64,000 bases of DNA from Amyelois transitella. Taxonomy: Eukaryota > Arthropoda > Insecta > Lepidoptera > Pyralidae. Below are positions 1 through 61,500 of this stretch, one piece after another (position 1 is the first letter of the stretch; each line of letters begins with the position of its first letter). The notes under the pieces were generated by a model. It ran no database searches. It was given only the letters and a program-made list of their open reading frames with translations, and was not told the DNA's origin. A program made the position numbers and the translations under genes. The DNA is taken from NCBI RefSeq assembly GCF_032362555.1, contig NC_083516.1, positions 583,001 to 647,000 of the forward strand, written 5' to 3'.

Positions 1-130
1 TTGCTACTTTGATAGCAAATAACATAAAAGAATGGACGAGTTTACATTGTGGTAAACTACATTGTTTACAAAATCTGACAAAATCGACAGAATCATCAAA
101 TTTTTGTAATGATGATTCTGTGGACGCTAC

Positions 131-1381
131 ATGTGGTTTAAACTAAACCACAGGACAAAAGGAAGGACAAATGAATTAAAAATTGTACACCAAAATATAC
201 AGGGCCTTCCTGGCAAAGAACTTATTATAGATCTATTTAATGAAAAAATGGATGTTAATATGGTGTGTTTGACTGAGCATTGGATCTTGGAGGGTGAGCT
301 GATGCCCAGTCTTAACAATTTTAATGCGGTAAGCTGCTTCAGGAGAGGGTCTGCAATCAGAGGCGGTTCAGTAATATATGTTAAAAATGGTCATCGCTGT
401 AAGGAGCGCCATGACATAGTCAGACTTTCTCTTGAGCGCTGTGTTGAGGTATCTTGTGCCGAGCTTGAGGAACACATTGTTATTTGTATTTATAGTCCAC
501 CCAACAGTAGTATTATGGATTTCCTGAATGTAATGGAGGAAGTTCTAATAGTAGCGACAAAAAGTAATAAGAAAGTAATTGTTTGCGGTGATTTTAACAT
601 TGACATATTAGTTAGCTCCACAGTGACAATACAGTTTCTTAACCTATTTAAATGTTTTAACTTAGATAATGCCTTCTTGGAACCAACCCGCTTCACTGCC
701 ACATCTGCTAAATGTATTGATAATGTTTTTAGTGAACAAAAACCAAATAATAAAAATGTATTTAGTAAATTACCCTCTGATCACTGCGGTCAATTAGTTA
801 CCTTTTCCACTAAACGTAGTACACGTGATGGATTAATTATGTGCAGACCTATCACAGCCCATAAAATCAATAAATTTACAAGTTCTTTAGAGAATAAAAT
901 TTGCGCAGTAACTTACACGGGCAGCGATCCTAATGGTCATTATAATAAGTTATTTACTACCATTTCAGACGCGTACTCTAAAACATTTATACAAAAGAAA
1001 CGGAAATGCAATAATAACTTTAAATTCAATGAATGGGCTACTGTTGGCATCTACAAAAGTAGAAAGACTTTGTACGATTTATATGCCCAAAAACAGTATC
1101 GATTTGAAAGCGGCTTCGTAGACCATGTTAGGAATTATTCAAAAATTTTCAAAAAAGTATGTCTACATGCAAAATCTTTGTTCATTAAAAACAAAATAAG
1201 TAATGCTCCTAACAAAACAAAGGAAACCTGGAGTGTTATAAACAAGGAAACTGGTAGAAGTAATTTTAAAGACAATATTAATGAAATTAAATTTAATGAT
1301 AGGAAAATTACCTCTACAACAGAAATAGTAAATTTATTTGAACATTTTTTTTACAAATATACCGTTGGAATTAACTTCTAA
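131..1381 (+). pseudogene. LINE ORF2 part 1: apurinic-type endonuclease and linker
   Basis: The frame shows an exonuclease-endonuclease-phosphatase fold: the HQNIQG start, the LTEHW glutamate motif near residue 48, the CGDFNID motif near residue 150 and the SDH histidine motif near residue 217. In LINEs this enzyme nicks the target DNA. The frame runs out just after a run of T at about 1346-1354 and continues in another frame as the reverse transcriptase, so one or two bases were gained or lost in the homopolymer. The ATG at 131 is the first in the visible frame but may not be the original start, because sequence to its left is cut off. Confidence 0.8.
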
Positions 1382-3023
1382 TATTGACTCATGCCCTAAT
1401 GAAGCTGAAATTCTACTTAAAAATAATGTCAGCATTTGCAGTTCCAAATTTAAATTCTTAAATATTGACCCTACTGACATTATTAATACCTTTAAAGAAC
1501 TTAATCTGAAAAAGTCTGAGGATTATTGGGGTATGTCGGTTGTTGTGATATGTCATATTATAAATATTATAGCTGGGGACTTAGCTTATATATTCAATAA
1601 TTGTGTTGACCAAGGGATATTTCCAAATTTAATGAAGTATAGTAAACTAATTCCATTATTCAAGAAAGGTGAAAAATCAGATCCTGGTAATTATAGACCA
1701 ATCTCAATTTTACCAATTTTGAGCAAGGTGTTCGAGAGAATCATGCTTAATCAAATGCAGCGTTACTTTAAGTCTAATAAATTATTTCATAGTCAGCAAT
1801 ACGGCTTTACTGAGGGGAAATGTACAACAGATGCAGGTGTGGCTCTTGTCACTCATATTCTCAATGCATGGGAAGACTCACAGGATGCCATCGGAGTGTT
1901 TTGCGATCTGACCAAAGCATTTGATTGCGTAGATCATAGAACTCTTCTGCTCAAGCTCGCTCATTACGGGTTCGATACTGCTGCCGTTGAACTAATTAAA
2001 TCATATCTTAGTGATAGATTACAGACGGTAGATTTAAATAATACAAAATCGAAAGGAGCGACGGTAAAAATTGGGGTACCGCAAGGTTCTATTTTGGGAC
2101 CTTTTCTCTTTCTGATATATATCAACGACCTGCCTTGCATGATTGAGAAACAGAGTGGCATCGTGTTGTTTGCAGATGATACGTCACTAATTTTTAAAAT
2201 GAACCGCCGTAGCGAAATCTGTGATGATGTGAATAGCACTTTAGCCGCCATCTCTAACTGGTTTACAATCAACAACTTACTGTTAAATGCAAATAAGACC
2301 CAATGTATTAAGTTTACACTTCCCAATGTGCGGCAGGCAAATGTGGATATTAGTATAAATAGTAAAAGATTAGATTTTGTTGATAGTACTACTTTCTTAG
2401 GAATAACATTAGATTCAAATTTGAAATGGCATGCTCACATTTTAAAACTTTCTAAAAGGCTTAGTTCTGCAGCATACGCTATTCGTCGTATTAGGCATTT
2501 GACGGATGTGGCAACTGCTAAGCTAGTATATTTTAGTTATTTTCATAGTTTAATGTCATATGGTCTACTGCTTTGGGGATCAGCAGCAGACATACAAACT
2601 ATTTTCATTTTACAAAAAAGGGCAATTCGATATATCTACGGTCTTAAACAAAGAGATTCCCTTAGAGATTTTTTCAAAAACCTAAATATTTTAACTTTGC
2701 CCTCCCAATACATATTCGATAACATCATGCATGTTAGGAAAAACTTAGACTCTTTCAAAAAAGTAGGTGAATGTACTAGTAGATCACTGCGGAACAATTA
2801 CAAGTTGTCGATCCCAGCACATCGGCTGGCTAAGGTAGGGAAATCATTTCTTATTAATTGTATAAGATTTTATAATAAATTACCAAAAAGTGTTCTTGAA
2901 ATGAATGATAGAAAATTCAAACAGTATATTAAAGTTGAGCTTTGTAGCAAAGCCTATTACAGCACGGATGATTATATTAATGATAAACATGTGTGGCCCG
3001 AGCTGGACATAATGGCCTCTTAA
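1338..3023 (+). pseudogene. LINE ORF2 part 2: reverse transcriptase
   Basis: This frame holds a complete set of non-LTR reverse transcriptase blocks in order: NYRPISILP, the first catalytic Asp in DLTKAFDCVDH, GVPQGSILGP, the catalytic pair in LFADDTSLIF, and the thumb region with FLGITLDSNLKWH. A C-terminal domain follows with LLLWGSA. It overlaps the endonuclease frame by 44 bases. The apparent ATG at 1338 is an accident of the frameshift and not a real start. Within this frame no stop interrupts the polymerase, so the copy may be fairly young despite the frameshift. Confidence 0.82.
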
Positions 3024-7100: not shown

Positions 7101-10100
7101 GCCTTTTTGTCCACGATCCGGGATAACTAGTCTAATAAGTCCATTTTATTTCAAGACCTACAGAATAGACAAAGCTGCGAGAGCTGCTCAGAAATTAGAA
7201 ATTCTGACAATGACTGCATAGGCATTCTTAAACAATGATCTAAGTTTCTTGTTTCGTGCATATAAATTTTGTGATATAAATTTACAAGAATACGCCCGCG
7301 ACTTCACCTACGTAAAACGATCCAGCTACTTTTTTTACCGTAAGAATTTTGGGAAATCCTCTGCTGGTGCACCCAATTTCAAATTACTCTAGACACTGCG
7401 GTTTGGGCTGTGGACACTGCGGTTTGGGCTGTGCGATGAGTCAGTCAGTCCATTCAATGTCCTCTTTTATATAATTAGATGATTAAATATGTGTGCCTTT
7501 TCAATAGTAAATTAAATCTTTTACTCAGCTAATCTATTGTAATGTATGTATTTTGCAGTATGCATGTGCACTTTATCGCACCACCAACTTAAAGTTTTTC
7601 TGTTTAGTCAGCTCATAGACTGGAAGAGAATGCCAAACGGCATTAAGTCCGCCCTATGTACATTTTTTTGTGCAATAAAGTTTTATATAAAATTGAGCTG
7701 ATTGGCTTTGCGTGGCCTATTTTGATGACTGTTGGCTCTGTCTACCCCGCAAGGGTTAGTGTCGTGATTATCTATACTAATTTAATAAAGCTGAAGAGTT
7801 TGTGTGTTTGAACGCGCTAATCTCAGGAATTACTGGTTCGAATTGAAAAATTATTTTTGCGTTGAATAGACCATTTATTGAGGAAGGCTTTAGGCTATAT
7901 AACATCACGCTGCGACTATAAGGAGCAAAGAAATAATGGAATATGCTAAAAAAACGGGAAAAATTATTCATCCTGATAGAGCTTCAATGATGCCCAAAAT
8001 AACTATACCACACGGACGAAGTCGCGGGCACAGCTAGTATGTTATATTTTGTTTAGGAATCAGCATACATGCTCGTGGAAACATAACAATAGAAATGATA
8101 TCTCGTCCTTCAATAGCGAGATGACAGAAAAGGATTGAGGTCTCTAGAAGGAGGAATGATGTGTTACTATGACGGACGAGGTATCCATATAAATCAGGCG
8201 GTCGGTAAGTTTATCTGTCCAATAAAATTAGTAAATAGGTTTCTATTGTGTGGTTACAAGAGTATACTTTTGTTTAAAACTTTACTACAATTCTATACTA
8301 GATTCTAGACTAAATTTAGGTAGGTATTTCCGAAGACATTAAGTGGTGTGATGACAAAATTTTAATTCAATATTATGGGACATATTTAACGTGTGAAAAA
8401 CTAAAAGATATGACAATTATTTAGTGATTAATAATTGTCATATTTATTGGATTTTCACACGTGAAATAAATAAATAAAAACTAGATTTACTGCCGCTTCC
8501 AAAGCGTCAGTGCAGAAGAAGCGGTAACTAACTGTACTGCAGCATTTCCTTCAATAACGTCAACTACACAATTAATATATATATATATATACATACGGGA
8601 CAAATTACACTGATTGAGTAAGCCTCGAAGTAAGTTCGAAACTTGTGTTACGAGATACTAACTCAACGATACTATGTTTTATAACAAATACTTATATGGA
8701 TATATCCAAGACCCAGGCCAATCAGAAAAAGGTCTTTTCTCATCATGCCCTGGCCGGGATTCGAACCCGGGACTTCCGGTGTCACAGACAAGCGTACTAC
8801 CGCTGCGTCACAGAGGCCGTCAAAATATTAATAGTTATTCGATATTTATACAAATATAAGCAATATTGTCCACCTACAAGTACTTATATAGCTTCACTAC
8901 ATAGTATAAAACAAAGTCGCTATTTTAGTCTGTTTGTCTGTATGCTTAAATCTTTAAAATTACGCAACGGATTTTGATGCGGTTTTTTGTAACAGGTAGA
9001 GTGATTCAAGAGGAAGGTTTTTATGTATAATAACATTTATAATTTTGCACCCGTGCGAAGCCGGGGCGGGTCTCTAGTTATAAATATAACAGAGAACTAT
9101 ACATGCGTATAAAAAGTCCAAGTGTTAGTAAATACCTGGTGCCGAAGCCGTGGCGTTACCTGCTGACACTGGGACATCAGCTTGATCATCTGGCCGAACG
9201 TGACTCCGTAAGGTCTGTTGATCCTGCTGAGCTGGCGGAGAAGGCGGCTGGTGTCTTCCTCATCACTGAAACGGAGAGAGAAATCGGTAAGTTAGGTTGA
9301 TTATAGTTTTAGTAACGCGTGTTTCTCGCGACATGTCTATTAGTCCTAGTTCTTAGATGTAGCGTGAGGCGACTGAAGGAATAAATTTAATAAATAAATA
9401 TATACGGAACAAATTACACAGATTAATTTAGCCTCGAAGTAAGTTCGAGGCTTGTGTTACGTGACACTGTTTTCTATAATAACCTACTTAAATAGTCAAA
9501 CATCCAAGACCCTAGGCAAATAGCCGATTGGTCTTTTCGAGACTGTTGGCTCTGTCTACCCCGCAAGGGATATAGACGTGATTAGATATATGTCTCTTTC
9601 AAAATGACTACTACTAATATTTCAATTTCGGTCGGATTACGTCGGATTATCCGACCAATTGAAAAGTCACACTCGCATAGGAGAATACTCTTGAAGTAGA
9701 CTGAAGAAGGTCACTCGGACGACAAGATTACGTTACGAGCGTTCGTCCCAGTCCCAGAGGCCTACTCGCGGAGAAAGTGGTGGCGCCGGCGCGTGCGCAT
9801 CGCGGGTCATTGCCCGGATATTGCGTAACTGACCTCTAGGATCGGGACTAATCGCACGCGATTTGTTTTGTGCTATTTTCCTTTATCTTAAACGGTTTAG
9901 GTTTAACGACTTAGCGACACGTGTTCTGTAAGGCGTTGAGGTTGTGCACCAATGGATGCTTTTACAAAGAATGAATGAATGAATGATTTCTTTACCCAAA
10001 TTGGGAATAACTGAAGACCAAGTGGCGACTTCGGGGGGGAAACCAGGACAGGTCAAGTTAGGTAGATTAGATACTTCTGCAAGGTGAGCCAATTGGGATT

Positions 10101-22100: not shown

Positions 22101-25100
22101 TGATTTTATGTATATGTATGTAAATGTACTAAATACATTAAATGTGCCTGTATATAATTTACCAGCTGTGCCCGCAAATTCGTCCGCGTGGAATAGTTAT
22201 TTGAGGCATCATTGAAGCCCTCAAGGATGAATAATTTTCCCCGTTTTTTTTTTCACTTTTTCCATTATTTCTTTGCTCCTTATAGTTGCAGCGTGATGTT
22301 ATACAGCCTTCCTCGATAAATGGTCTATTCAACGCAAAAATAATTTTTCAATTCGAACCAATAGTTCCTGAGATTAGAGCGTTCAAACAAACAAACAAAC
22401 TCTAAAGCTTTATAATATTAGTATAGATTTATTCTATAATTAAGCAAAACAGCTGAACGTGGCCCATCAGTCTTTTCAAGACTGTTGGCTCTGTCTACCC
22501 CGCAAGGGATACAGACGTGTTTATATGTATGTATATAGCTAGAGAAGTAACTGACTAGCTAAGAGCAGCTGTCGACTTCCTTGCGGAAACTTATTTTTTA
22601 TTCATTCAAAATCGATAGTTCGATCGAGTCGGCCGTGACCAACAGAAGCAATCATTGGGCCAATTCTAATGAGTTTTGTTTGTTTGTTTGTTTGTACTTT
22701 TATTTCGCTTCACTAAATATTTTACACATGGGTAACCACAATAACTACCCGGGTGACGTTAAAAGGGAAAGGTCGGAGTGGGAAGACCTAGGCGAACGTA
22801 TTTTGATCAAATTAAGGACGTCCTGGCAAAGGGTCGGGTCAAGAGTGCCCGAAACCGCCGCAGAGACTACATGTTTCCACATGCCACGATCTCTGCATAC
22901 TTCCTTCGCTTCATAAATACATACATATCATCACGTCTATATCACTTACGGGGTAGACATAGCCAATAGTCCCGAAAAGACTGATTGGCCACGTTCAGCT
23001 GCTCGGCTTAATGATGTAATTGAGATCGAAATAGTGACAGGTTGCTAGCCTATCGCCTAAAAGAACAATCTCAAGTTTATAAGCCTATCCCTTAGTCGCC
23101 TTTTACGACATCCATGGGAAAGAGATGGAGTGGTCCTATTCTTTTTTGTATTGGTGCCGGGAACCACACGGCACAAAGACAAGAGTACCTACCTATTATC
23201 CCGAAAAAAATTGCTGTTCTCTTGAGATTTGCGTTTCACAGCCATGCGCAATGGTACACATAGAAAAGTATACAATAACATTGATAAGTACCGTCGGTGG
23301 TCTACTTTACCCTGTGGCCCACTGTACGTGGTCCTGTTACCTGATTAAATAAGCAAAGCATGTTAATTGATAACTTTTACTATCGTAATTAGGATACAGG
23401 CAGTGTGTGATTACATCAACTCAATTTCTAAGGATGCCATGTTATTAATATTCATATGATAACAGTAAGTATTTACTATAATTTAAAGGCACATTTTCTG
23501 CTGGTGAACAACCATGATCCCAGGGTTAGCATGATCGTTAAGGGCAGACCGGACCCTTGGTCCCCGTCGGGAGCACATAACCGGGATGGGACCAAGGGAC
23601 CAAATGCTGGGAGGGACTGACAAGAAGACATGAATGACTTGTAAATCGTTAATAATTTTGTTTTTTTATATTTTTTATTGATATTGGGAAAAGAAATACA
23701 TATATACAGTTTATCACGTCTTAATCCCTTACGGGGTAGACACGGTCAAGAGCATTGATAAGACTGTAAAGCCACGTTATTGGATGTTATACAAAAACTA
23801 GAAAGGTACATAGATAATGTTGTTTCGATTTTAAATACACAAAATTATAACTTACCTTAAAAAAGTTTACAAAAGGCGGTCTTAACGCATACCTACTTAA
23901 AAACATTCAATTTTATCAATCTTTACATACATACATACATACATAAAATCACGCCTCTTTCCCGGAGGGGTAGGCAGAGACTACCTCTTTCCACTTGCCA
24001 CGATCTCTGCATACTTCTTTCGCTTCGTCCACATTCATAACTCTCTTCATACAAGCTCGGCGGTTTCGGGTACTTTTGACCTGACCCTTTACCAGGACGT
24101 CCTTAATTTGATCAAGATACGTTCGTCTAGGTCTTCCCACTCCGACCTTTCCCTCCACACTCTCCTTGTATATCTGCTTAGTCAACCTGCTTTCATTCAT
24201 CCTCTCCACATGACCGAACCATCTTAACATACCCTTTTCTATTCCTGTAACTACATCTTCTTTCACATCACAACATTCCCTTATCACGCTGTTCCTTATC
24301 CTGTCACTCAATTTCACACCCATCATACTCCTTAACGCTCTCATTTCCACTGCATTTATTCTGCTTTCATGCTTCTTTTGCCATACCCAACTTTCACTCC
24401 CATACATTAATGTCGGGACCAACACGCCCCTGTGCACAGCCAGTCGAGCCTTTTTGGATAGTTTCTGACTGCTCATAAAGGCATGCAAAGCTCCATTCAC
24501 CATGTTCCCCGCGTTCACTCTCCTTTCAATATCACTATCATACTTGCCATCTGATGTAAACTTTGATCCTAGATATACAAACTCTTTCACTTGCTCCACT
24601 TTTTCTCCTCCAATCAAAATATTACATGCTGTCATTTCTTTCTCCATTTCAAAAACCAGTGTTTTAGTTTTACTTACGTTCACTTTCATTCCTTTCTCTT
24701 TTAAAGCTTCATGCATACAGTTTACCATCTCCTGTAACTCCTCCGCTGATGACGCCAGTATAACCTGATCGTCGGCATAGAGCAGACATTTGACGAGTAA
24801 CTCATTCATCCTTAATCCACTTTTAGACTCTTTCAAATCTGTCAAACAGCTATCCATAAATAGGTTGAACAGCCACGGTGACGCAACACATCCTTGCCTA
24901 ACGCCTTTCTCAATCTTAAACCACTCAGTGTGCGCTCCGTTTATCCTGACACAAGCACTCGAATCCTCATATAAGGATTTCAGTGCTCGTATTAAGAGAC
25001 TGCTCACCCCATGCATAGAAAGTGCTGACCACAATTCATTCCTCTCAACTCTGTCATAGGCCTTTTCCAGATCTACGAATGTGCAATAGACTTTTTGACT

Positions 25101-28100
25101 CTTGGCCAAAAACTTTTCGGCTATGCACCGCAAGGAAAAGACCTGATCAGTACATCCCATTCCCTTTCGAAATCCCGCTTGAGCATCCCATATTTTGTCA
25201 TCAGTTTCATTCCTGACTCTATTAATCAATACCTTAGCATACAATTTGCCGACGACGCTAAGCAGGCTTATACCACGATAATTTTTGCAGTCCAGCTGTG
25301 ACCCTTTTCCTTTGTAAAGTGGCACGATAACAGCCTTACACCAATCTTTTGGTACTCGGCCGCTTCTCCAACACAAATTGAAAAGGCAGTACAACTGACT
25401 AGCTACTACGCCTTTTCCTGCTTTAAGCATCTCGACCGACACTCTATCACACCCAGCAGCCTTTCCCGCTTTCATACTCTTAAGTGCTTCCACAATTTCG
25501 AACATTTCAATTTCGCCTTCCATCTCATTCTCTTTTTCTTCGCTATAGCAGAAATCTTTCTTATTTCCTTCCTTTTTTTCAAATAAACTTTCAAAATAGT
25601 CCTTCCATATCTTTAGTACACATTCTTCTCCTTTCACAACGCTACCATCCTGGCATCTGATCCTAGTCAGCTCTCTGGTTATAGTATTTCCTCGGGCTGA
25701 CCTTACGGATTTCCAGAATACTTTCAGATTTGACTGAAAGTCTTCTGATAGCCTTTTATCAAAATCCTCTTTATACTCTTCTTTCTTTCTAATCACAGCT
25801 TTCTTAACCAAATCTTTCATTTTCTTATATTCCTTACGTGCTTCATTCACATCTTCATCTATAACCTCTTGCATTCTTAAGTTAGCTTTTGCTGCTAACA
25901 AATCCAGCCATGCTTTCTTCTTTAATCGCACAAGTTCTTGCACATCTTTACTCATCCACGCATTTTTGTGATTTTTTCCTTTCCTTCTTCTACTTACACC
26001 ACACACTTCAACAGCTACTTTCACAATTCTTTCTTTAAATTCCTTCCATCCATCTTCAATATCGCTCATTTCCTCTAAATCTTCAAATTCATCCTTCAGT
26101 CTATTAATATACTTCTTACCTACATCCATATCTTGCAAATTTTCTACTTTTACTCTTTCCAAAGCGCTGGTTTGCTCCCTTACCCTGTGCCGCCAGCGAT
26201 TGAAGATACCCCTTATCCGGGATATCACCAGTAAATGGTCCGAGTCAATGCCAGCACCGCGATATGCACGGGTATCCAGCACTTTGTTCTTCAATCTTTC
26301 ATCTACAATCACAAAGTCTATCATACTTTTTAAAATACCTTCCACTCTTGTGTAGGTGTGGATCTCTTTATGTTGAAACATTGAGTTCGACACAAAAAGA
26401 TCCCACTCTAGACAAATTTCTAATACACTTCTTCCATTATCATTCACCTTTTCGTCACCAAACGCACCAAGCACCTTTTCATATCCATCACGCTTTACAC
26501 CCACCCATCCATTAAAATCACCTAACATAATAATCTTCTCATTTGGCTTGGTAACTTTCAATACTTCTCTTACACTATTCCAGAACTCCTCGTTTTCGCT
26601 TTTTGCTGATGTTGTACCCCTCGAACCCACATCCCAAGGTGCATAAACACCTAGAACGAAGATCCGAGTGATTCCAACTTTCAGCCTAATCCATAGAAGA
26701 CGAGGGCTGACACACTCATACTCATTCACGCACTCAGCCATTCGTGCAGAAAGAATTAGACCGACCCCTTGACAGCCTCGGCTGGTACTGGAAATTCCAG
26801 ACCAATACGCCGTGTAAGGGCCGTGCTGCGTCGCGTCGCATCCTTTCCGCTTCGTTTCATTCACGCACAACACATCCAAACGTCTTTCATCCATCATCTG
26901 GCATACTTCCTCAATCTTATCCTTCATTCCTCCTCTTACATTCATCGTCGCAAAGCGGCTTTCAGCAGACCGCATACCGCTCCCGCCGGGAACGAGACGT
27001 GATGGGGTGCGGACACCATCGCCGCCATCTAGGTGCTCTTTAAAAAAAAATTTGCATCCATGCGATCTTTAGTTGTAAAAAGTAAAAGTATATTCGTTAC
27101 TGTAAAATCAAAAGCTCTAAATCTTAAGCTGAAAGCTTTCATCTATCTCTGAACTTGCTTCTGGCAACATCGCGTGATGGAGCCGATTCTCACTCGTAAC
27201 GATTTGATAGCTAGATATTTTACAAGTCTTACCGTGGCAAATTTGCATGTATTCAATTGTTATGTAAAGAACTGTTATTTAAAAACGAGTTTTGACTATT
27301 TACATATTTTGTTTTTGATTACGATACAGGTATAACAATCACTTTTACATTCGGGCGGTGTAGTGTTGTCATTGCTGTGTGCATAAAAAATTATGTTCAT
27401 TATAGCAAATATATATATATATATACATATTCATTTATATATTTATTTAAATAAATATAAATTAGAGCATGATGAGAAATGAACTCCCTCTGATTGGCTT
27501 GGGTGTTTATCTATAATTAGTAGGTATTTATCTATAATATAATCTATAATAATACAAATTTTGGAAAAATATTACAGCACAAATAAAATGACTCCTAAGT
27601 AATAGTTTCTGTATGTGTTTCTTATTTTTGCTATACGATTTTTTAAAAAGACACATTATATGCAAATTGGGCAATTGCGGTAATAAAGACAGATATTTCA
27701 TACCATCGTTTACATATTCTTTAATTTTGTATTTAAATTTATGTCATGACATTGACATACAAATATTTAAAAATGGTAAAGTTATAGTTATTATGTATAA
27801 CGAATAGAACATTTATCGATGAAGGCTATATAACATCACGCTGCAATTATAAAGAGCAAAGAAATATTGGAAAATGTGAAAAAAATACGGGGAAAATTAT
27901 TCATTCTTGAGGGCTGCAATGATGCCCATAATAACTATTCCACGGGGACGAACTCGCGGGCACAGTTAGTTAAGATATAGTATATATCTTGTCAACGTTC
28001 GTGAATAAGGGGGGAATGTAAGTGGAAGCAAACAGATTGTTACTCGTACAATTAGGAGCTGCGCAGTCAAGGTAACACCACTACAGAGTGATATAAACGC

Positions 28101-33059: not shown

Positions 33060-33292
33060 GAATTTAAAGTTTTAGTGCCAGGGCAGACAGAGTCTTGAAA
33101 AAAATGATAGGCCACGTACAGCTATTCGGCTAATCATGTAATTGAGATTCAAATAGTGACAGATTCCTAGCCCATCGCCTTCAAGAAGAATTCTAAGTTT
33201 ACTAGCCTTTCCCTTAGTCGCTTTATACGATAACCATGGAAAAAAGAAGGAGTGGTCCTATTTTTCTCTATTGGTGCCGGGAACCACACGCC
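33060..33292 (-). mobile_element. SINE family A, first of a tandem pair
   Basis: Reverse copy whose right part (gctttatacgataaccatgg and ttttctctattgg) shares private changes with the next copy. Confidence 0.82.
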
Positions 33293-33314
33293 AAACATTG
33301 ATTTTGTTTATTTA

Positions 33315-33592
33315 CATACAATACATACATACATACATATGGTTACGTCTATATCCCTTGCGGGGTAGATAGAGCCAACAGTCTTGAAAAGACTGAATGG
33401 CCACGTTCAGCTACTTGGCTTAATGATAGAATTAAGATTCAAATAGTGATAGGTTGCTAGCCCATCGCCTAAAAGAGGAATCCCAAGTTAATAAGCCTAT
33501 CCCTCAATCGCTTTATACGATAACCATGGAAAAGCGAAGGAGTGGTCCTATTTTTCTCTATTGGTGCCGGGAACCACACGCCAAACATTGAT
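33315..33592 (-). mobile_element. SINE family A, second of a tandem pair
   Basis: Reverse full-length copy. Its right end and the caaacattgattttgtt flank are repeated from 33292-33310. Confidence 0.84.
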
Positions 33593-37877: not shown

Positions 37878-40800
37878 TTAATAACTCCAATGTTCCACTT
37901 TAATCTCTTGTTCCGTATTTTCAGGTACATTACCCTTGATGAAAGGCAATCCTGCATCAAAAATATAAATGATTTATCAACTATAAAACACTCTATACAT
38001 TGACGGCCCCTGTGGCGCAGCGGTAGTACGCTTGTCTGTGACATCGGAGGTCCCAGGTTCGTATCCCGGTCAGGGCACGATGAGAAAAGATTTTTTTCTG
38101 ATTGGCCTGGGTCTTGATATGTTTTACATTTTTATATAAGTATTTATTATAAAATATAGTATCGTTGTGTTAGTAGTATAGAAGTTGATTCACTTGGTAA
38201 GCACTGGGAGAGAATTTCCCGTATTTCCCGCGGGAAGTTAACGGAGTTTTAATATTTACGCGGGCGGAGCCGAGCATGTACTACGACATATAATTCCATT
38301 TAATTTTTTTAGCACAGGACGGGACCGCTCCATCTCTTCCCCATGGACGTTCTAAAAGTCGACTATGGGAATAATAGGTACATTCATCGAGTGCAGTTTT
38401 TTTTACCATGATCCAACATGGGTAGATTCCCCTGCAAAGGTTGCGGAGGTCAGGCAGGAGTAGCAGTCGTGGTGAAATGCCATGCGATCCCATGATGTCC
38501 TCAAAATGGCGACAAATTACACAGATTGAGTTAGCCTCAAAGTGAGTTCGAGACTTGTGTTACGAGATACTAACTCAACGATACTATATTTTATTATACC
38601 TATATAGAAAAACATCCAAGACCCAGGCCAATCAGAGAAAGTTCGTTTCTCATCATGCCCTGGCCGGGATTCGAACCCGGGACCTCCAGTGACACAGACG
38701 AGCGCACTACCGCTGCGCCACAGAGGCCGTTAAACATTAGATGCCAGGAGTCCCACACTCTCCCGGGTGAAGACACGGGAGGCAGTCCTTAAAAAGGATT
38801 TCCCCTTCGGAGAAAAAAAAGGGCACGTGTCGCTGCGTATAAAAACCTGACTCACCCAATCATGGATCAAGGTCGAGCGCACCCAGCTCTCGTCTCCAGA
38901 GACGTGAGGGCGTGACGTGACCTGGACTAAGAACCATCAGTGACAATGAAACCTGGAATAAGAACATCCTTTTTCCACCTGGACCAGCCAGGTTCAGTAA
39001 AGTATTACCTGTAGGCACTTTCTTCTGGTACTCCCTGTACTGGTTTCCGAAGAAAGTCAGCAAGGTCAGCTCCTCGGCGAAGACGCGCTCCCTGAAGAAC
39101 ACCCACGACACCAGCGCGTAGAACACCACGCAGACCGGGTTCAACATCACAACCTGATTGGTCAAGATTCAGGTCAAGAGTAGGTACCCGAAACCGCCGA
39201 GCTTGCATGAAGAGAGTTATGAATGTGGATGAAGCTAAGGAAGTATGCAGAGATCGTGGCAAGTGGAAAGATGTAGTCTCTGTCTCTCTCCCTCCGGGAA
39301 AGAGGCGTGGTTTTATGTATATATGTATGTACCTGATTGGTGGAAAAAAACAAAAGTGACAAGTTGTCAAAAAAAAATGTTTTTTATTCCTTAAAAAAGT
39401 AAGGGATAGGCTTATAAACTTGGGATTCTTCTTTAAGGCGATGGGCCAGCAACCTGTCACTATTTGAATCTCAATTCTATCATTGAATCAAACATGAACG
39501 TGGCCTTTCAGTCTTTTCAAGATTTTAGACTGTCTACCCCGCAAGAGTTAAAGATGTGATTACAAGTACGTATGTATGTTATTCCTTTTTTATTTGAGTT
39601 TGCATGTAGCACCATAAGCCTAATCTTGCTTACCACAAGGCAGGATATATTAAAAAAAAACATTTAATTAAGATAATTTTAAAAACCTGTACAGACAAAT
39701 TTTACAACCCGCTAAAATATATTCGTTGCTGATTACGATCTATGTCGCTAGATGGCGCTTTTTTTATCAGAATAAAACCTTAATTTAAAACTCCAAGACA
39801 TATTATCTGATATTTTCGTCTAGATGTTACAGTCAAAACATGTTATTGTGGAAGTCTATATATCTACATATATACATAGATATGCCTTTGTTTACGTCAA
39901 ATGTGAATTTATCAAAAGATTTGACCTCTATATGAAAACAGGGTAGCAAAAGCTTAACAAAACAGGTACAGGGACAGGTCAGGGGGTCAACTACGTGTTG
40001 ACCTATGCTATGTTAAAAGTTGTCAATCGATAAGTAATTTTTTATGAGTTTATACGATACGATAGGTACATACACATACATACGTATATGATTTCCGGTA
40101 TGTAATTGGGAATTTGAATGCGTCCTACCCCAATTTTGCCCAATAAAAACAGATGAATGTGCCTATCCTCTTAGTCGCCTTTTACGACATCCGAGATAAA
40201 GAGATTAAGTGGTCCTATTCTTTTTTCTATTGGTCTCGGGTACCACACGGCACACTATTCAGTCTACCCGATATAGACGTAATATTATTGTATACTAGCT
40301 GTGCCAGCGACTTCGTCCGCGTGGAATAGTTGTTTTGGGCATCATTGAAGCCCTCAAGCATGAATAATTTTTCCCGTTTTATTCACATATTTTCCATTAT
40401 TTCTTCGCTCCTAATAGTTGCAGCGTGATGTTATATATAGCCTAAAGCCTTCCTCGATAAATGGTCTATTCAACGCAAAAACAATTTTTCAATTCGAACC
40501 AGTAATACCTGAGATTAGCGCTTTCAAACAAACAATCAAACTCTTCAGCTTTATAATATTAGTATAGATAACGTAGTTTTAATTTCTATTTACCTGGGTG
40601 CCGACAGACCAGTAGAACCAGCCGACATAGCTCGGGTGTCTGAAGAAGGAATAAATCCCACGGGTCACCAGTACGTGGTCGGGACTCTTCTTGAACTGCA
40701 CCTGTGCGGGTAATAATATACATACATACATACATATGGTCACGTCTATATCCCTTGCGGGGTAGACAGAGCCAATAGTCTTGAAAAGACTGAATGGCCA

Positions 40801-43800
40801 CGTTCAGCTATTTGGCTTAATGATAGAATTGAGATTCAAATAGTGACAGGTTGCTAGCCCATCGCCTAAAAAGAATCCCAAGTTTGTAAGCCTATTCCTT
40901 AGTCGCCTTTTACGACATCCATGGGAAAGAGATGGAGTGGTCCTATCCTTTTTTGCATTGGTGCCGGGAACCACACGGCACTATAATATATAAGTAATAA
41001 TATATAAGTTAATTACCATCGACAATTTGTTTTTTTCTTAAATGACTTACAAAACAGAGCACGTTCTCATTTCAAGTTTTTCTTTTTTTTTTATTTATGT
41101 TACGGCATAATTCCGGTATTTACAATCTACATACATACATATAATTACGTCTATATCCCTTGCGGGGTAGACAGAGCCAACAGTCTTGAAAATACAAAGT
41201 TAATTGCTTTCATTGGTTTGAAGAAGATAATAAATCTTTAATTTTTTTCATTAATCCAATTAAATTAATTTTATTTAGACTAACTCAACCCCAAATTTAA
41301 AAATTTTTATTCATTATTATGGGACTTTTCACATCACTTAATAATTGTCATATCTTTTGGTTTCACAACATTGGTTGTCGTCAAATAAATTACTTAAAAC
41401 TAACTAACTTTACTGCCGCTTCACAAGCGTCAGTGCAGAAGAAGCGGTGACAAACTGCACTGCAGCATTAGCTTCAACAAATACAACGTATATATATTAT
41501 GTACGGGACATTTATATTCATTAAAATACTGGTCGAATAACATAGATTGAGTAAGCCTAAATAAAAATAATTGTATTCAATTAAGTAACTGCCTACGCGC
41601 ATATAATCCGTCAGAATTGTGCCGTGTGGTTCCCGGCACCAATACAAAAAAAAATTGGACCACTCCATCTCTTTCCCATGGATGTCGTAAAAGGCGACTA
41701 AGGTATAGGCTTACAAACTTGTGATTCTTTTTTAGGCGATGGGCTAGCAACCTATCACTATTTAAATCTCAATTCTACCATTAAGCCAAATAGCTGAACG
41801 TGGCCTATCAGTCTTTTCAAGACTGTTGGCTTTGTCTACCCCGCAAGGGACATAGACTTGACCATATGTATAAGTAGAATTGACACGCCGAAAAGAAAGC
41901 CGATTAGTAACCAATGATAACCGATCCGGTATGCATCAGTTATGTTTTTTTCTTAACGCAGACAAGCGGAGATAACAGTATTAATTATGACCCTGCTTGT
42001 CGCCTGGCCGTTCAAGTTACATCAACCTAGGTTGTTTAGGAAAGGTGCTATCTTAAAAAACAAACCTTGTTTTTAAACTTTATTATCAAGTCGGTTGCTA
42101 GCTTACATATTTATTACGAGGTCAAAGTTTTTTGTGGGACTTGGATAACTTTATTTCTATACTAGCGGACCCGACCGACTTCGTTCTGACAAAAATATTT
42201 GTAATGTCGCTGTATTTTGTTCTTGCCTATTTTATAATCGGGCAAAAAATTAAATTTGAAATTTAAATATGATTAAATTTGAATTTCGTACAGCGATAAT
42301 AAAGTGCAAATTAAATATGACGTTTTGAACACACCTACGTTGTAAGACAACAGTGAACTTTGTACAAAAGCAATAAAGCTCAAATAGACTCTACGTTTTA
42401 GTTAGAAAACGTTTGTATAGTAAAAAGAAAAGGGCTGTTTTTAGGGTTTTCCGGCAATAATTCTATTTTATCTCCCCGTAAAAACCATCCTCGAACTTAC
42501 ACGAACATTTTAAAAAAAATTGGCCAAATTGGTCCAGGCTTTGTTGAGTTATGCGCTAACCAACACATCTAGCGATTCATTTTTATATAATAGGTAGTTG
42601 GAGCGTCCGTGGTCGAATCGGTAAGGTGCCCGGTTAAAATGCGTGATACACAGAAAGGCACAGGTTCAAATCCCACCTCGGCCATGTACCAATGACTATT
42701 TTCAAAGTAATTTACATTAGTTTGAACACTAACCGATGCTCTTACGGTGAAGGAAAACATCGTGAGGAAACCAGCACACTCAGACAACTGGATGTGTAAC
42801 CATGGATCCAATACGGGTTAGGTTCACCTGCAAAGGTTGCGGAGGTCAGAGGGGAGTTGCTTCGTGTAAAAACCTTACTCACCCAATCTAGGATCCATTG
42901 TAGGATACCCCGGGCTCCTCTCCAGAAAAGGTGAGGATGTAACCAGGACTTAAGCCAGGAGAAAGATGGATAACTTTATTTCTAGATTCTGAACGCGACG
43001 TTTCGACTAATTCAATTTTCCTACTAAAATATTCTGAAAAATTTCGGTGAATGTCTGTCTGTTACGCTTTCACTCCAGAACCACCCACTGAACCGAATTT
43101 GATAAAATTTGGTACAGAGGTAGTGATGATGGTAATTTGACCCTGCGGATGAACATAAGCAAAAAAGGGAGGAAAAGGGTAAAAAAGGGGGAAATGGTAA
43201 AAGAAGGGACGAATGTCTGTATGGACACCAGAAGTAAGTTAGAAACTTGTGTTACAAGATACTAACTCAACGACACTATATTTTGTAATAAATACTTATG
43301 TAGATAAACAATCGATACCCAGGTCAATAGAGAAAAAGTTCATTTCTCGTCATGTCCTGGCCAGGAATGCGAACCTGGGACCTCCGTTGTCTCAGACAAG
43401 CACACTACCGCCGCGCTTCGGAGGCCGTCAAATACATAAATAAGTTGACGTCAATACGAGACACATTGTATCTTATTTTGATAACTAGCGTGCCCCTTCG
43501 TCCGCGTGGAATAGTTATTTTAGGCATCATTGAAGTCCTCAATGATGAATAATTTTTCCCGTTTTTTTCACATTTCCATTATTTCTTTGCTCCTTATATG
43601 TGGTTGCAGCGTGATGTTCTAAAGCCTAAAGCCTTCCCCGATAAATGGTCTATTCAACGCAAAAATAATTTTTCAATTCGAACCAGTAGTGCCTGAGATT
43701 AGCGCGTTCAAACAAACAAACAAACTTCAGCTTTATAATATTAGTATAGATAAATCTATTTCTTTATATATATGTGTACCTATATGCAACTTACGGACAA

Positions 43801-46359
43801 ATTAAGGACGTCCTGGTAAAGGGTCAGGTCAAAAGTACCCGAAACCGCCGAGCTTGCATGAAGAGAGTTATGAATGTGGATGAAGCGAAGGAAGTATGCA
43901 GAGATCGTGGCAAGTGGAAAGAGGTAGTCTCTGCTACCCCTCCGGGAAAGAGGCGTGATTTTATGTATGTATGTATGTATGCAACTTACCGTGTGGTTGA
44001 AGTTTGTGCTGGCCGTGAACATGGCGAGCTTGCGGAGAAACTCGCCGCACACACAAACACACACGCCGATGTTCGACAGCCAGAACAGCGTCTTTATGCC
44101 TGATGGAAATATGAGAAATTCACGAAATTACAATTGATGCCTCGATGATGATCGATGTCTTTATCTGTTACGACGCAGTCAGAGCCGATAATCTCGAAAA
44201 GACTAGAAGGTCGCGTTCAGCTGCATAGCTTAATGACTCCGATCAACTATTTCTCAACTATGCCTAGACTATGCTTCGACTATACCTCGACTATGTCTCA
44301 ACTATATCTGATTTCAGATTCAGATAGTGACGGAGTTGTACATTTTACGTGCGTGTAAGTGCCTCGAAGTAAGTTCGAGACTTCTTACTCAACGATACTA
44401 TATTTTATAATAAATATTTATAGTATAATTGAACATCCAAGACCCAGGCCAATCAGAGAAAGTTCGTTTTTCATCATGCCCTGTACGGGATTCGAACCTG
44501 GGACCACCGGTGTCACAGACAAGCGTACTACCGCTGCGCCACAGAAGCCGTCTATAAACATAGTTTTGCACTTTGGCCAAAGATTTAAGTCTACATCAAT
44601 CAATCAATCAATTTATTGTCAAACATAGGGACAAAGATACAGTTGTTGAATAATAATACATATCATACTTACCTACCCCTCCGGGAAAGAGGCGTGATTT
44701 TATGTATGTACGTATGTATCATACTTACCAGGACACAAGTAATATTCAACACCAAACTCGATCCAACTGGCCACAGCAGCAATCCAGTACTGCACGCTAT
44801 GATTCAGTATGAATGAATCCACAGACAAGGTCCGCGGGTTCGTCAGAGCCACGGTCATGAACTCTGAGAAGTGGAACCCCGAGAAGACCATGAGGTAGCG
44901 GCCGAAGATCCGCCAGCCGTCTTCGAATGTCGCCAGGTGGATCCCGGTAGCGAAGATAGTGCCGAGAAAGGTGGAACGGACTGATACCTGCAATGGAATT
45001 TGGAATTCTTATTTCTATCTCTCTCTAACTTGGGATTGTAGACAATGGGCTAGCAACCTGTCACTATTTGAATCTCAATTCTATCTGGAAGCCATACAGC
45101 TAAATTTGCCTGTCAGTCTTTTCAAAACTGCTGGCTCTGTCCACCCCACAAGGGATATAGACGTGATTATATGAATGAATGAAAATGAGACCTAGCTGAG
45201 AAAATAAAATATAATTGATTTGAATATAAGTTTTTGTGGAGTTCAACACAATATCCATTTTTTGGGGTTAACAAATATTCATACTTTTCCTACATAATCC
45301 AAACAAGGAGTAAAATCATCTAAAGAATTACTAAATTCAATCGAGATTTTAATTTTTTAATTTATTTATAAGGTTTATAATGGGAAATGTTTTGTGAAAG
45401 AGTATGTATTTTTTTTACTATATTAGAAACAAAAATTAAATTTCATATCTAAGGAAAAGTAAAAAAAAAAATACATATATACATACATAAAATCACACCC
45501 CTTTCCTGGAGGGGTAGGCAGAGACTACATCTTTCCACTTGCCACAAAAAAAATGTGCAAGTGAAATCATACAAGATTTAGAGAGTCCCAAGTCATACAA
45601 GTACAAAATATTTTTTTTATTAAATGTATGTTGAGTTAAAGAATTGTGTTATTTTCTACTCAACAATACTATATTAAAAAAAAGGTTGCAAACACTTGAT
45701 TTTCCTCATGATATGACTAGGTATCAAACTGGAACTGGTGGTTTAGAGGCAGGATCACTATCCTGCTCCAAACATGCCATTAAAAAAACCCAAGTTCCAA
45801 CTAAAATCTTAGTTCAGTTATGATTCAGCCAACTATTTTTTATGTTGTTGATTTTGGAAAAGTTTTATGATAAATAATATGAAAAACTGAATTTTATATA
45901 AAAAAAAATTGGAATAATTATATAATATGTATGGAAAGACCGTATAAAGTGGAAAGTTTAAATCTCTACCCACTCCTCTGGGTAAAGGGTGTGATTTCAT
46001 GTTTGTTTCCATGTTAAAAAATTCTTTAAAATCTGTTAATATTTGCTGGTTTATGGCATCGTGCCTAATAGCCCAAATAACAGATTTTTCGGAATAGTAA
46101 CTTGAAATTCTAATGAAAGAAAACAATAAAAACAGGTGTTTACCTCATACAAGAACCCTTTGAAGCAATACCGTAAAATGAAATTAAATAAACAGAAATA
46201 AAGGGCTGGACCCCAGTATTTCAATGCCCAGAGCTCTGCAGAGAAGCCCAACGCATTGCCGGAGAAGAATGAGGCGGAAAATATGGAAACTGATAGAAGA
46301 AAACACACTAGTGCTTGCCTCCCAGCAGGGCACACATTTCTCAGTGACGGCGTATCCAT
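37878..46359 (-). CDS. ste14: Protein-S-isoprenylcysteine O-methyltransferase (ICMT/ste14)
   Basis: The six coding exons are 46359-46144, 44987-44729, 44099-43990, 40701-40594, 39153-39009 and 37951-37878. All have GT-AG borders and the phases match; total 303 residues. The enzyme uses S-adenosylmethionine to methylate the prenylated C-terminal cysteine of CAAX proteins in the ER membrane. The sequence is strongly hydrophobic throughout, as expected for a multi-pass protein. Family motifs: LSVDSFILNHS in exon 2, GEFLRKLAMFTASTNFNH in exon 3, RHPSYVGWFYWSVGTQ (216-231) in exon 4, and FFRERVFAEE plus YREYQKKVPTG in exon 5. The last exon adds LPFIKG and a short polar tail. The start is the ATG at 46359; the longer frame to 46413 begins with TTG. 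Three introns carry RTE insertions at their edges (see 39163, 43795, 44675). Exon 3 encodes an odd CVCVC from a GT-rich stretch. Confidence 0.95.
38001..38176 (+). mobile_element. tRNA-derived SINE family T, forward copy
   Basis: Head with A box tggcgcagcggtagtacg and B box ggttcgtatcccgg, then the tggcctgggtctt body. It stops before the usual tail. It starts 50 bases before the last ICMT exon on the opposite strand. Confidence 0.85.
38401..38475 (+). mobile_element. SINE family V fragment
   Basis: Forward: accatgatccaacatggg, cccctgcaaaggttgcgg and aggtcaggcagg. Confidence 0.62.
38510..38732 (-). mobile_element. tRNA-derived SINE family T, near full length
   Basis: Reverse copy with intact boxes (cgggattcgaacccggg, ctaccgctgcgccacag). 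Confidence 0.86.
38838..38935 (+). mobile_element. SINE family V 3' fragment
   Basis: Forward: aaaaacctgactcaccc, aatcatggatc and tctccagagacgtgagg. Confidence 0.58.
39163..39330 (+). mobile_element. RTE LINE 3' fragment at the ICMT exon 5 acceptor
   Basis: Opposite to the gene. Contains cccgaaaccgccgagcttg to aagaggcgtggttttatg and a tatg tail. It is flanked by an 11-base duplication, acctgattggt, at 39152-39162 and 39331-39341. The left copy includes the last two exon bases and the AG acceptor of ICMT exon 5, so the 3' splice site occurs twice, 178 bases apart. Confidence 0.88.
39397..39579 (+). mobile_element. SINE family A, 5'-truncated
   Basis: Forward, taagggataggcttataaac to gattacaagtacgtatg, in ICMT intron 4. 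Confidence 0.8.
40142..40252 (-). mobile_element. SINE family A, head half, diverged
   Basis: Reverse: agtcgccttttacgacatcc, agtggtcctattc and ggtaccacacggcac. Confidence 0.7.
40295..40568 (-). mobile_element. Non-autonomous Helitron
   Basis: Reverse copy between host A (40294) and host T (40569); it ends 25 bases from ICMT exon 4. Confidence 0.85.
40720..40981 (-). mobile_element. SINE family A, full length
   Basis: Reverse copy with four tatg units. It lies 18 bases from the acceptor side of ICMT exon 4 (ends 40701). Similar A+T-rich flanks (taataatata) suggest a target duplication. Confidence 0.86.
41130..41196 (-). mobile_element. SINE family A tail fragment
   Basis: Reverse: acatacatataattacgtc, cttgcggggtagacagagcc and cagtcttgaaaa. 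Confidence 0.78.
41330..41480 (-). mobile_element. LINE 3' UTR fragment (second hairpin-tail family)
   Basis: Reverse copy: cacttaataattgtcatatc, ctgccgcttcacaagcg, gaagaagcgg and ctgcagcatt. Confidence 0.72.
41619..41871 (+). mobile_element. SINE family A, full length
   Basis: Forward copy with the intact head hairpin at 41619-41639 and a decayed tail (gacttgaccatatg). Confidence 0.86.
42598..42962 (+). mobile_element. tRNA-headed SINE family V, longest copy
   Basis: Head with A box (cgtggtcgaatcggtaagg) and B box (ggttcaaatccc), a middle part with gatgctcttacggtgaagg, and a 3' body with ctgcaaaggttgcggagg and ccagaaaaggtgagg. The ends of the head do not pair as an acceptor stem, so it is not a working tRNA gene. 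Confidence 0.78.
43229..43430 (-). mobile_element. tRNA-derived SINE family T, mutated boxes
   Basis: Reverse copy; the B box is changed (ggaatgcgaacctgg) and the A box carries cgcgcttcgg, so it is probably silent. Confidence 0.78.
43495..43750 (-). mobile_element. Non-autonomous Helitron
   Basis: Reverse copy with host A before and host T after; the hairpin end is shortened (ctagcgtgccccttcgtcc). Confidence 0.8.
43795..43977 (+). mobile_element. RTE LINE 3' fragment at the ICMT exon 3 donor
   Basis: Opposite to the gene. It includes about 45 C-terminal codons and ends gcgtgattttatg with five tatg units. A 12-base duplication, tatgcaacttac, lies at 43783-43794 and 43978-43989. The right copy is exactly the first 12 intron bases next to ICMT exon 3, so a second GTAAGT donor stands at the far side of the insert. 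Confidence 0.92.
44145..44337 (-). mobile_element. SINE family A, old copy with internal repeat expansion
   Basis: Reverse, diverged (gacgcagtcagagccg, ggtcgcgttcagctgc, attcagatagtgac), interrupted by short repeats at 44248-44310. Confidence 0.62.
44248..44310 (+). repeat. Degenerate tandem repeat, about 12-base unit
   Basis: Five or so units of the type tcaactatgcct / tcgactatgtct inside an old SINE. Confidence 0.75.
44360..44552 (-). mobile_element. tRNA-derived SINE family T
   Basis: Reverse copy with a usable B box (gggattcgaacctgg) and A box (ctaccgctgcgccac), tail truncated. Confidence 0.82.
44675..44716 (+). mobile_element. Very short RTE LINE tail at the ICMT exon 2 donor
   Basis: Only about 42 bases of the RTE end (tacccctccgggaaagagg, cgtgattttatg and tatg units), opposite to the gene. 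It is flanked by a 13-base duplication, tatcatacttacc, at 44662-44674 and 44717-44729. The right copy is the first 12 intron bases plus one base of ICMT exon 2, so the GTAAGT donor is duplicated. Confidence 0.9.
45027..45180 (+). mobile_element. SINE family A, 5'-truncated
   Basis: Forward: gggctagcaacctgtcac to gacgtgattatatgaatg, in ICMT intron 1. Confidence 0.75.
45469..45546 (-). mobile_element. RTE LINE tail fragment
   Basis: Reverse: acatacataaaatcacacc, ggaggggtaggcagagac and ccacttgccac. Confidence 0.78.
45930..46004 (+). mobile_element. RTE LINE tail relic
   Basis: Forward, diverged: aagtggaaagtttaaatctc, actcctctgggtaaagg and gtgatttcatg. Confidence 0.55.
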
Positions 46360-58500: not shown

Positions 58501-61500
58501 TTTTTCAAAATTGGATACAAGGTGTCACTTATTGACGTCACATCACTTAAATCTAATTATAACTACTACCGCTTCCAAAGCGCATGTGTAGAATGAAAGA
58601 AGTATGAACTTAAGGTCATACTTACTTTTGAGTGCCGTGTGGTTCCCGGTACCAATAGAAAAAAAGAATAGGATTACTCCATCTTTTTTTCTATGGGTGT
58701 CGTAAAAGGCGACTAAGGGATAGACTTTGTAAACTTGGGATTCTTCTTCTGGGCGATTGGCTAGCAACTTGTCACTAGTTGAATGTCAATTCTACCATTT
58801 ATTCAAACAGCTGAACGTGGCCAATCAGACTTTTCAAGACTGTTGGATCTGTCTACCCCGCAAGGTTGTAGACGTGAATATGTGTATTACTTATTTTTAT
58901 GGTTCTGTACCTGAAGAGTAAAAACGGGACCCTAGTACTAAGCCTGTTGCTGTCTGTCTACCCCGTAAGGGATTAAAGAAGTGATTGTGTGTATGAATGT
59001 AAGTGATCTCACCTTGGCAGTAGCAATGAATTATAGTATTTTGCTTAACATCAAAAAAAATTGATCATCCATCACCTTCTAAAGATAAACAGTTATCACT
59101 AACCTTGGCAGCGGTACTGGACTTGGGTTTCTGCACGTCGTGCGGGCGGAACAGGAACTGCCTGTTGAGGTTGGACTTCTCGATGAGGTCCATATCGGTG
59201 ACTGTGACGCAGCCGCCGGCCGCGCCCACGCCGATCATCGCGAAGTTCTTCATCAGCTCGCAGCCGATTGCGCCGGCGCCTGGTGAAGGTAGTTTAATAA
59301 ACATTACACACATATATAATCATTCTAGTACATACATATAGTCAAGTCTATATCCCTTGCGGGGTAGACTGAGCCAACAGTCTTGAAAAGACTGACAGGC
59401 CACATTCAGCTGTTTGGCTTTATCATATGATTGAGTTTCAAATAGTGACAGGTCGTAAGCCCGTCGCCTAAAAGAAGACACCCAAGTTTATAAGCCTTAG
59501 TCACCTTTTACAACATCCATGGTAGAGAGACAGAGTGGTCCAATTCTATTTTCTATCGGTGCCGGGGACCACACGGCACAAATTACGAACACTGCTTTTA
59601 GGACTAGAGACCAAAAACTTACCAACAATGAAATATTTGAGCTCTCCAAGTCTCTTCTGGAACTCCTTTCCGAACACAGCGACCTGACCATCATATCTTG
59701 ACCCCACCGGCTTGCAAGAATCCTCGGTCAAGAGCGATCTGTCTTTGGGTAGGCACTCAACGGCGTCCAGGTACAGCCATTGGACGATCGGGTGGAACTT
59801 TCCGGAGCATGCCTTCATCACCTCCTGGGCAACGACGCCGCCTATAGCGGCGTTCATTGGGTTCAGATCTCCGGCACTGACCTGGAAATTTAAATATTAT
59901 TTTAAGTACTCCAACATAGTTTAATAAAACTTCACTTAAAATAAATCCTTTGATTTGGAAATAAAAGCTGTTTTTTTTCTATTTAATCCCTTTTTTTTTA
60001 AATGAAATTTCTGTAATTAGTCCTGTTGTCCCTTTTAAGTAAGTTATTTTTTTCTGAGGGAGAGCACTGTGTGTTTTAATAATCAAATATTCCCTTCGAA
60101 ATGTTCATACAAATTTAGCATTTCGTTTATGTATTATTTTTGTTAAGAAGTTTTTTATAGAAAGAGGAAAGAAAGAAAGAAAGAGAAAGAGGCGTGATTT
60201 TATGTATGTATGTATGTAAGTTTTTTATACTTTTGGATACAAAAATGTCAGTCATATTCTCACTAACTATCATTCTTTTCACGACTGTTGGCTCTGCTTA
60301 CGCCGCAAGGAATGTAGACGTGATTGTATGTATGTAGTATAAAATACTAACCTTGCTGAAAGTGTCAAACAACTCAACATTGAGTTCTATTTCCCCATTC
60401 TTAAACTGCTCTTGGTCCTTCACAAAGTCCTTAGCATATTCCAGGAATTTCGTAGAGTCCGATTCACACCATGGCCTCGGGAGGTGCCCTTCTGCCTCTT
60501 GGAACTTATCCAGAACAGCGAATGCGATATGCAACTGCTGTGGATAATCAAACTTGCCAAAATCCGTGATAACAAACTCTGGATTTTTGTAAGCTTCTTT
60601 CAGCGGTTTGAATGCAATTTTTTTGGGCATTTTGACTTGTGTTACGATGCCTCCGCGGTTGTATTTGCTGAAAGAGGTTGTGTCTCCGATGCTGAAAGTG
60701 TACGGCCCGAGGACTTTGATCTTTCTGGGCTCGCAGCCGTTGAGTTCCGTCATGCCTTGGACCTGGAGAGTAAAGTGATTTTGTTATTAATATTTTTTGT
60801 CATTTAAAATTTATAACAGGAGAATAATATTGACAAAATTTCAGTTTGTTATTAAGAGTTTATTATAATATAAATAAAAAAATTAATTTAAATATAATAT
60901 ATATAAATATAAATTTAATAAATAGAAAAGAAATTTAAGATAATGTATTAAAATAAAAAAAAAAAGAATTTGAAACTGATTGTGTTTTATAAAATGTATG
61001 GTTATAAATACTTGTCAGTTTGTGTACATACATACTATCATTGGTTTACTTGACAAATATAGTATACTCATTGAAAGAAAGATAATCAAAGGCAATTATT
61101 AATGTTAGCAGTTATATGAATTACTAGAAATAAATTATATCTTACTCAACTCTTATGTGAAGATAACTAATAACTATGTTCTTTGTGTTGCAAAAATATA
61201 TTTATTCAAAAGTAAATTAGCATTATCCATCATTATAAAATTACAAAGAGAAATTTGTGTGTTTGTTTGGAAATGAATAAATTCAGAAACTACTAGACCG
61301 ATTTTGATGGCATTTGACACTAAAGACAAAAGATGATATTTAATACTCCTGAAGGTTTTATAAACCTTAAGGCAATTTTTTCCCCCAAAAATTCCCATTT
61401 AAGAAAAACTCATAAACAACAGCTAGTAAGTAGTGTAAAATATTTATTTGTAGTTTGGTTTAAAAACACCCAAGAAGCAGAATCCAGGATACCAATATTG

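Follow-up and report, generated by a model that had tools for sequence, protein, structure and literature searches.

Three 5'-truncated RTE 3' ends, all of one family and all antisense to the gene, were found in ICMT, each with a target duplication of 11-13 bp that reaches an exon edge. They are probably ordinary target-primed RTE insertions, subject to a 1.7-1.9-fold bias towards the intron just past 5' splice sites and made survivable by the duplicated site. The genome-wide over-representation near donors was mild, and nothing pointed to a special element that seeks out splice sites.

ICMT gene and its insertions

The analysed window is a stretch of 64,000 nucleotides (C12:583001-647000), and the genome-wide counts cover the 327-Mb, 33-contig assembly to which it belongs. 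ICMT was rebuilt as a single open frame with GT-AG introns, which gave six exons on the minus strand and a protein of 303 aa. Residues 53-287 matched the solved ICMT structure 5v7p with an E value of 6e-87, and the exon edges are taken as firm. A heuristic splice-edge finder was dropped, as the 137 edges that it reported in the window were judged far more than real.

37878..46359, minus strand: ICMT coding span, six exons, 303 aa
46359-46144, 44987-44729, 44099-43990, 40701-40594, 39153-39009 and 37951 to stop, minus strand: ICMT exons

The three RTE insertions and a fourth, SINE A, insertion were delimited as follows.

43783..43794, plus strand: left copy of duplication TATGCAACTTAC, on the intron 3 side; exact repeat, flank score 12
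43798..43978, plus strand: 5'-truncated RTE 3' end, antisense to ICMT, 97.8% identical to a near-full RTE copy
43978..43989, plus strand: right copy of TATGCAACTTAC, which includes the donor of exon 3 (minus-strand GTAAGT)
44661..44672, plus strand: left copy of duplication TATCATACTTAC; exact repeat, flank score 13
44672..44717, plus strand: 46-bp RTE 3' tail, antisense to ICMT, 97.8% identical to the near-full copy
44717..44728, plus strand: right copy of TATCATACTTAC with the exon 2 donor; exact repeat
39152..39162, plus strand: left copy of duplication ACCTGATTGGT, which includes the acceptor of exon 5 and two bases of that exon; flank score 11
39159..39330, plus strand: 5'-truncated RTE 3' end, antisense to ICMT, an older copy (88.4% identity)
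39331..39341, plus strand: right copy of ACCTGATTGGT, a further copy of the acceptor, adjoined by the original T-rich tract; exact repeat
40710..41004, minus strand: SINE A insertion (element 40720-40995); flank score 11

The first-pass annotation had described three RTE duplications within 0-2 bases of an ICMT exon edge, at two donors and one acceptor, and this was confirmed. The TATGCAACTTAC duplication ends 0 bp from the exon 3 edge at base 43990, and TATCATACTTAC ends 0 bp from the exon 2 edge at 44729, or at +1 when the next C, which is shared, is included. The first base of exon 5 is 39153, so that two exon bases lie inside the ACCTGATTGGT duplication. All three duplications contain a splice site, which is also the arrangement of the canine merle insertion discussed below. 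Flank scores were obtained for the 49 RTE and SINE copies with tails in the window, fragments such as 38316-38373 and 40161-40254 being omitted, and were compared with a null made from mismatched flank pairs (mean 6.9, 95% point 10, 99% point 12). The score of 11 at the exon 5 acceptor falls between the two upper points, so this case also relies on the exact position of the match at the ends of the element.

The SINE A element, whose tail is shared with the RTE, is flanked by TATATTATTAC (gtaataatata on the plus strand, 40710-40720 and 40994-41004) and lies 8 bp away from the acceptor of exon 4. Four of the 13 RTE and SINE A copies in ICMT introns are thus within 20 bp of an exon, where 0.45 would be expected under random placement (P 0.0002). 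The 13 copies include the fragments 38316-38373 and 40161-40254, and the P value is post hoc, as the gene and the 20-bp limit were picked after the pattern had been noticed. Pure coincidence, noticed after the fact in a repeat-dense window, is an unlikely explanation of the cluster. The window is indeed rich in RTE and SINE elements, as the 49 copies analysed attest, and many windows and pattern kinds had been scanned beforehand; against this stand the local P value and an excess of the same sign, genome-wide, in two families.

A further case had been proposed at Uba1 exon 2, where a SINE A tail was thought to be bounded by a duplication. The flanks share only actaac, a 6-bp match that is at chance level, and the best match found by scanning was tail sequence with a score of 8; the case was therefore set aside.

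60267..60340, plus strand: SINE A tail next to the donor of Uba1 exon 2; duplication not supported

RTE family and its partner SINE

A near-full-length copy in the window served as family reference.

23929..27110, minus strand: RTE copy of nearly full length, with a 1039-aa frame free of interruptions (stop to stop)

This frame gave Pfam matches to RVT_1 (3.9e-41) and Exo_endo_phos_2 (3.1e-06), so that an APE-type endonuclease and a reverse transcriptase share a single frame, as is proper to the RTE clade. The short simple-repeat 3' end ((ATGT)n), the 5' truncation and the variable duplications, which measured 11-17 bp at the 47 sites passing the score filter, agree with the same clade. RTE is therefore used as the probable clade name of the family, also on account of its resemblance to the elements of PMC2887409, as far as these are described there.

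The 29-base RTE end occurs exactly 7,580 times in the genome. When the tail patterns were searched in collections of viral contigs and of genome contigs, no matches were found. The lepidopteran RTE elements described in the part of PMC2887409 consulted have a single endonuclease-reverse transcriptase frame, a very short simple-repeat 3' end and target duplications, and Metulj is described as a SINE suspected of being moved by an RTE (PMC6685494, in the part consulted). Both resemble the RTE and SINE A pair, and in those descriptions no relation to splice sites is mentioned.

Several other repeats were observed. Two consecutive SINE A copies at 33091-33583 have a 35-bp near-identical flank and are apparently a tandem or nested duplication. 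On the plus strand, 116-3023 holds two overlapping long frames which, by eye, resemble another LINE (endonuclease-like and reverse-transcriptase-like). Stretches resembling tRNA-His with anticodon gtg were reported by ARAGORN at 8746-8817, 38656-38727 and 44477-44547 (minus strand), one of them also by Rfam. These stretches overlap copies of another repeat, which is probably a SINE of tRNA origin. On contig C1, two RTE loci about 40 kb apart (L031, C1:189282; L033, C1:229730) have flanks that are identical over the length retrieved, which suggests a segmental or assembly duplication.

Genome-wide counts near splice sites

The RTE census consisted of pattern counts, in which the 19-base tail GCGTGATTTTATGTATGTA is followed at a set gap by the antisense donor word ACTTACC. 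The word was found 44 times at gaps of 2-30, 27 times at 31-60 and 27 times at 61-90. At gaps of 2-30 the scrambled word ACATTCC was counted 14 times (44 vs 14, P 5e-5) and the donor word of the other strand, GGTAAGT, 16 times. The SINE tail gave 42 donor words at 2-30 and 23 at 31-60, with 24 for the scramble at 2-30. The near counts exceeded the far ones in both families (RTE P 0.020, SINE P 0.009; pooled 86 vs 50, P 6.6e-4), and for RTE also when 44 was set against the 54 found across 60 farther positions (P 0.007). The raw enrichment was 1.69-fold for RTE and 1.89-fold for SINE, and the RTE factor rose to about 2.5-2.8 once background words were subtracted. Further tail repeats occupy the short gaps (the smallest RTE gap was 6), so the near counts should, if anything, be lowered.

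The outcome depended on where the gaps were divided. With the split at 18 instead of 30, the SINE excess was kept (29 vs 14.6 expected, P 0.005) and no RTE excess was detected (23 vs 19.4 expected, P 0.29). For acceptors in sense orientation (RTE tail with TTTNCAGG) there was no excess, with 30 near and 33 far.

The nature of the flanks was evaluated in all 44 rows of the RTE set at gaps 2-30, for each of which sequence was available, and in the 20 of the 27 rows at gaps 31-60 with sequence. The near set includes the two ICMT copies, and one of its loci is counted twice (L084 and L085). Of the 44 near rows, 21 had an exon-like flank (open frame, GC at least 0.45), compared with 5 of the 20 far rows (Fisher P 0.11). 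When the GC limit was placed at 0.40, 0.43 and 0.48, the near and far numbers were 26 and 10 (P 0.59), 24 and 7 (P 0.18), and 15 and 4 (P 0.38), respectively; the proportions did not differ significantly at any of the four limits (Fisher P 0.11-0.59). A literature search covering titles and abstract openings returned no report of a donor-side RTE insertion bias, which is not proof of its absence.

Exact edge and neighbourhood

The distances from the tail to the donor word were binned for the 44 near strings and 24 of the 27 far rows. In bins of five bases the counts were 14, 6, 9, 8 and 10, followed by 4, 4, 5 and 5. The exact-edge bin thus held 14 against a mean of 8.25 in the four neighbouring bins (P 0.042), and when both ICMT cases and a duplicated locus were left out it held 11 (P 0.21). 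The bin is somewhat raised, so the insertion bias may include a sharp, edge-specific component. The rise is weak and not compelling; the excess is modest and broad, extends over about 25 bp past donors and concerns antisense elements. The prediction that insertion edges would be in excess within 3 bp of splice sites across the genome was consequently borne out by the pattern counts in part, as a modest and broad donor-side excess, the exact edge itself being only weakly raised.

In 10 of the 44 rows, corresponding to nine distinct loci, a duplication with a score of at least 11 ends 0 to +4 bp from a putative exon edge. These loci are L064, L067, L074, L079, L080, L084 with L085, L086, L096 and L103. 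Five of the nine are protein-supported, namely ICMT twice (L079 and L080), Tubulin_C (L064), FERM_M (L084; E 2.2e-4, just under the curated cut-off) and Ank (L103). The flanks of L086 and L096 gave no Pfam match, that of L067 is ambiguous, and that of L074 does not look like an exon. At L084 (C14:498317) and L085 (C14:523668), 25 kb apart, an identical RTE insertion sits at the donor of a FERM-domain exon, either a duplicated locus or an assembly duplicate. Two of the five to nine exact donor-edge loci fall in ICMT, which has a rough probability of 0.1-0.8% if 13,000 genes are assumed; ICMT may therefore be a local hot spot.

Target sequence of the duplications

Target duplications were collected from the loci L001-L060, in which 66 distinct tails were present and 29 sites passed the filter; the two ICMT donor copies (both L001) were set aside, leaving 27. 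The sample is not strictly random, as L001-L030 are the best matches and L031-L060 the first places on contig C1. A separate set, taken from 60 loci with a threshold of 10, comprises 28 sites and includes one ICMT copy.

None of the 27 duplications outside the window ends in CTTAC; the word is internal in one, and GTAAG stands at the start of another. They are A/T-rich, with A as the last base in 16 and C as the first base in none, and they have no shared motif of the kind expected for the common target consensus of a site-specific LINE. A strong splice-like target, which the first-pass annotation had listed among its explanations, is hence not supported, and a weak one could hide at a sample size of 27. 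One duplication, at L049 (C1:560920), starts with GTAAGAGG and is a possible donor-edge case in sense orientation. No clear T stretch was seen about 10 nt upstream of the duplications in 29 sites, which very probably include two ICMT copies. In this the family differs from Bov-B, for which the part of PMC13295347 consulted reports a Tn-TA insertion signature, a weak and separable target signal in the RTE clade.

These data bear on the idea that the sequence preference of the RTE endonuclease overlaps the 5' splice site, so that donors, with GTAAGT on the nicked strand, are favoured. The strand-specific excess of ACTTACC over both control words near RTE tails would fit, and so would the two young ICMT donor inserts, both of the form TAT...ACTTAC. 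The A/T-rich duplications without a terminal CTTAC argue against it, as does the spread of the donor-word matches across 0-25 bp with no single offset, and we regard it as rather improbable.

Origin of the donor-side bias

Target-primed reverse transcription is established and explains the anatomy of the insertions. The RTE would nick one strand and copy its own RNA tail, (ATGT)n, at the nick; the copy would usually be 5'-truncated and leave a duplication of about 11-17 bp, and in ICMT three such duplications would have happened to span a splice site. Within the first 25-30 bp of intron after the 5' splice site, antisense insertions appear to be over-represented, about 1.7-fold for RTE and 1.9-fold for SINE, which would raise the chance of edge insertions without any splice-specific targeting. 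Since the duplication keeps the splice site, such an insertion would be survivable.

The insertions, the duplications and the counts were observed directly; the bias may stem from the DNA around the exon-intron step or from its chromatin, and selection would have removed inserts that destroyed the site. A selection filter, another of the explanations proposed beforehand, is in keeping with the inserts that survive, but alone it cannot raise the count near donors above that of the farther intron. This suggests that the sequence past donors, or its chromatin, is a somewhat better target.

A more particular proposal is that transcription, R-loops or a nucleosome-poor linker beside exons guides insertion, the 5' splice sites being open spots. 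The donor-side excess in two families and the clustering of four ICMT inserts within 20 bp of exons point that way; the sense-orientation acceptors, which had no RTE excess (30 vs 33), speak against guidance of this kind, and it seems as doubtful as the endonuclease preference.

Predicted consequences for ICMT splicing

At all three insertions the exon-adjoining copy of the splice site is undamaged, so ICMT presumably still splices, by way of the proximal copy. Judged from the sequence, the gene probably stays readable because its splice signals were duplicated. The T-rich tract of the exon 5 acceptor now adjoins the far copy, and element sequence precedes the near one. If the far exon 2 donor were used, 56 nt would be added, the frame would shift and a product of 167 aa is computed; the far exon 5 acceptor would add 179 nt, again with a frame shift, and give 283 aa.

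Duplication of a splice site by a retroposon has a precedent in merle, and insertion at a splice site has one in the MET LINE-1 cases (PMC7349775 and PMC12934576, in the parts consulted). The merle SINE, which underlies a coat-colour allele, is described as a reverse-orientation retroposon at an intron-exon border of PMEL, with a 15-bp target duplication that carries the original splice acceptor, still used if the tail is short (PMC7349775, in the same part). The likeness to ICMT lies in the antisense retroposon and in the splice site inside the target duplication; merle is one allele with a known effect on splicing, and ICMT has three RTE copies in one gene. At MET exon 14, LINE-1 is reported to have inserted repeatedly and independently at one exon border; in three of the nine cases the site was a nick motif close to canonical, which overlaps the acceptor (PMC12934576, in that part of the source). 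Those insertions were found in cancers and apparently cause exon skipping, while the ICMT copies are germline and their splicing is presumably intact.

Introners, according to the part of PMC9860276 consulted, enter exons and make a new intron, and their target duplications can supply the splice sites; some families leave duplications of 3-9 bp, and most are argued to move as DNA. At ICMT, a LINE entered existing introns. The introner-like mode put forward earlier, in which the element would make introns by supplying duplicated splice sites, accords with the splice site within each ICMT duplication but is extremely improbable, and introner identity is refuted for these three inserts by their anatomy, as the far flank is intron in all three, they lie inside larger introns (629, 3,288 and 1,440 bp, holding other repeats) and do not run from exon to exon, and use of the far copy would shift the frame at exons 2 and 5.

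A further reading is possible, though tentative. RTE and its partner SINE may have a real strand-specific bias towards roughly the first 25 bp past donors, arising from DNA or chromatin structure or from splicing-linked R-loops, and donor duplication may make otherwise harmful insertions survivable and leave tandem donors that feed new exon ends. If a full genome-wide count upholds the mild donor-side bias, tandem donors and alternative exon ends would have a simple source in it, and it could serve to test whether exon-intron structure is sensed during LINE insertion. Splice-site insertions have become known mainly through single alleles whose effects are visible; a high-copy LINE and SINE pair in one genome is a natural set that can be counted, in which duplication of the splice site would be an escape route. 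ICMT exon 3 would be an example of such tandem donors: use of its far donor (43783-43990) is computed to add 195 nt of antisense RTE sequence, in frame and without a stop, giving an ICMT of 368 aa.
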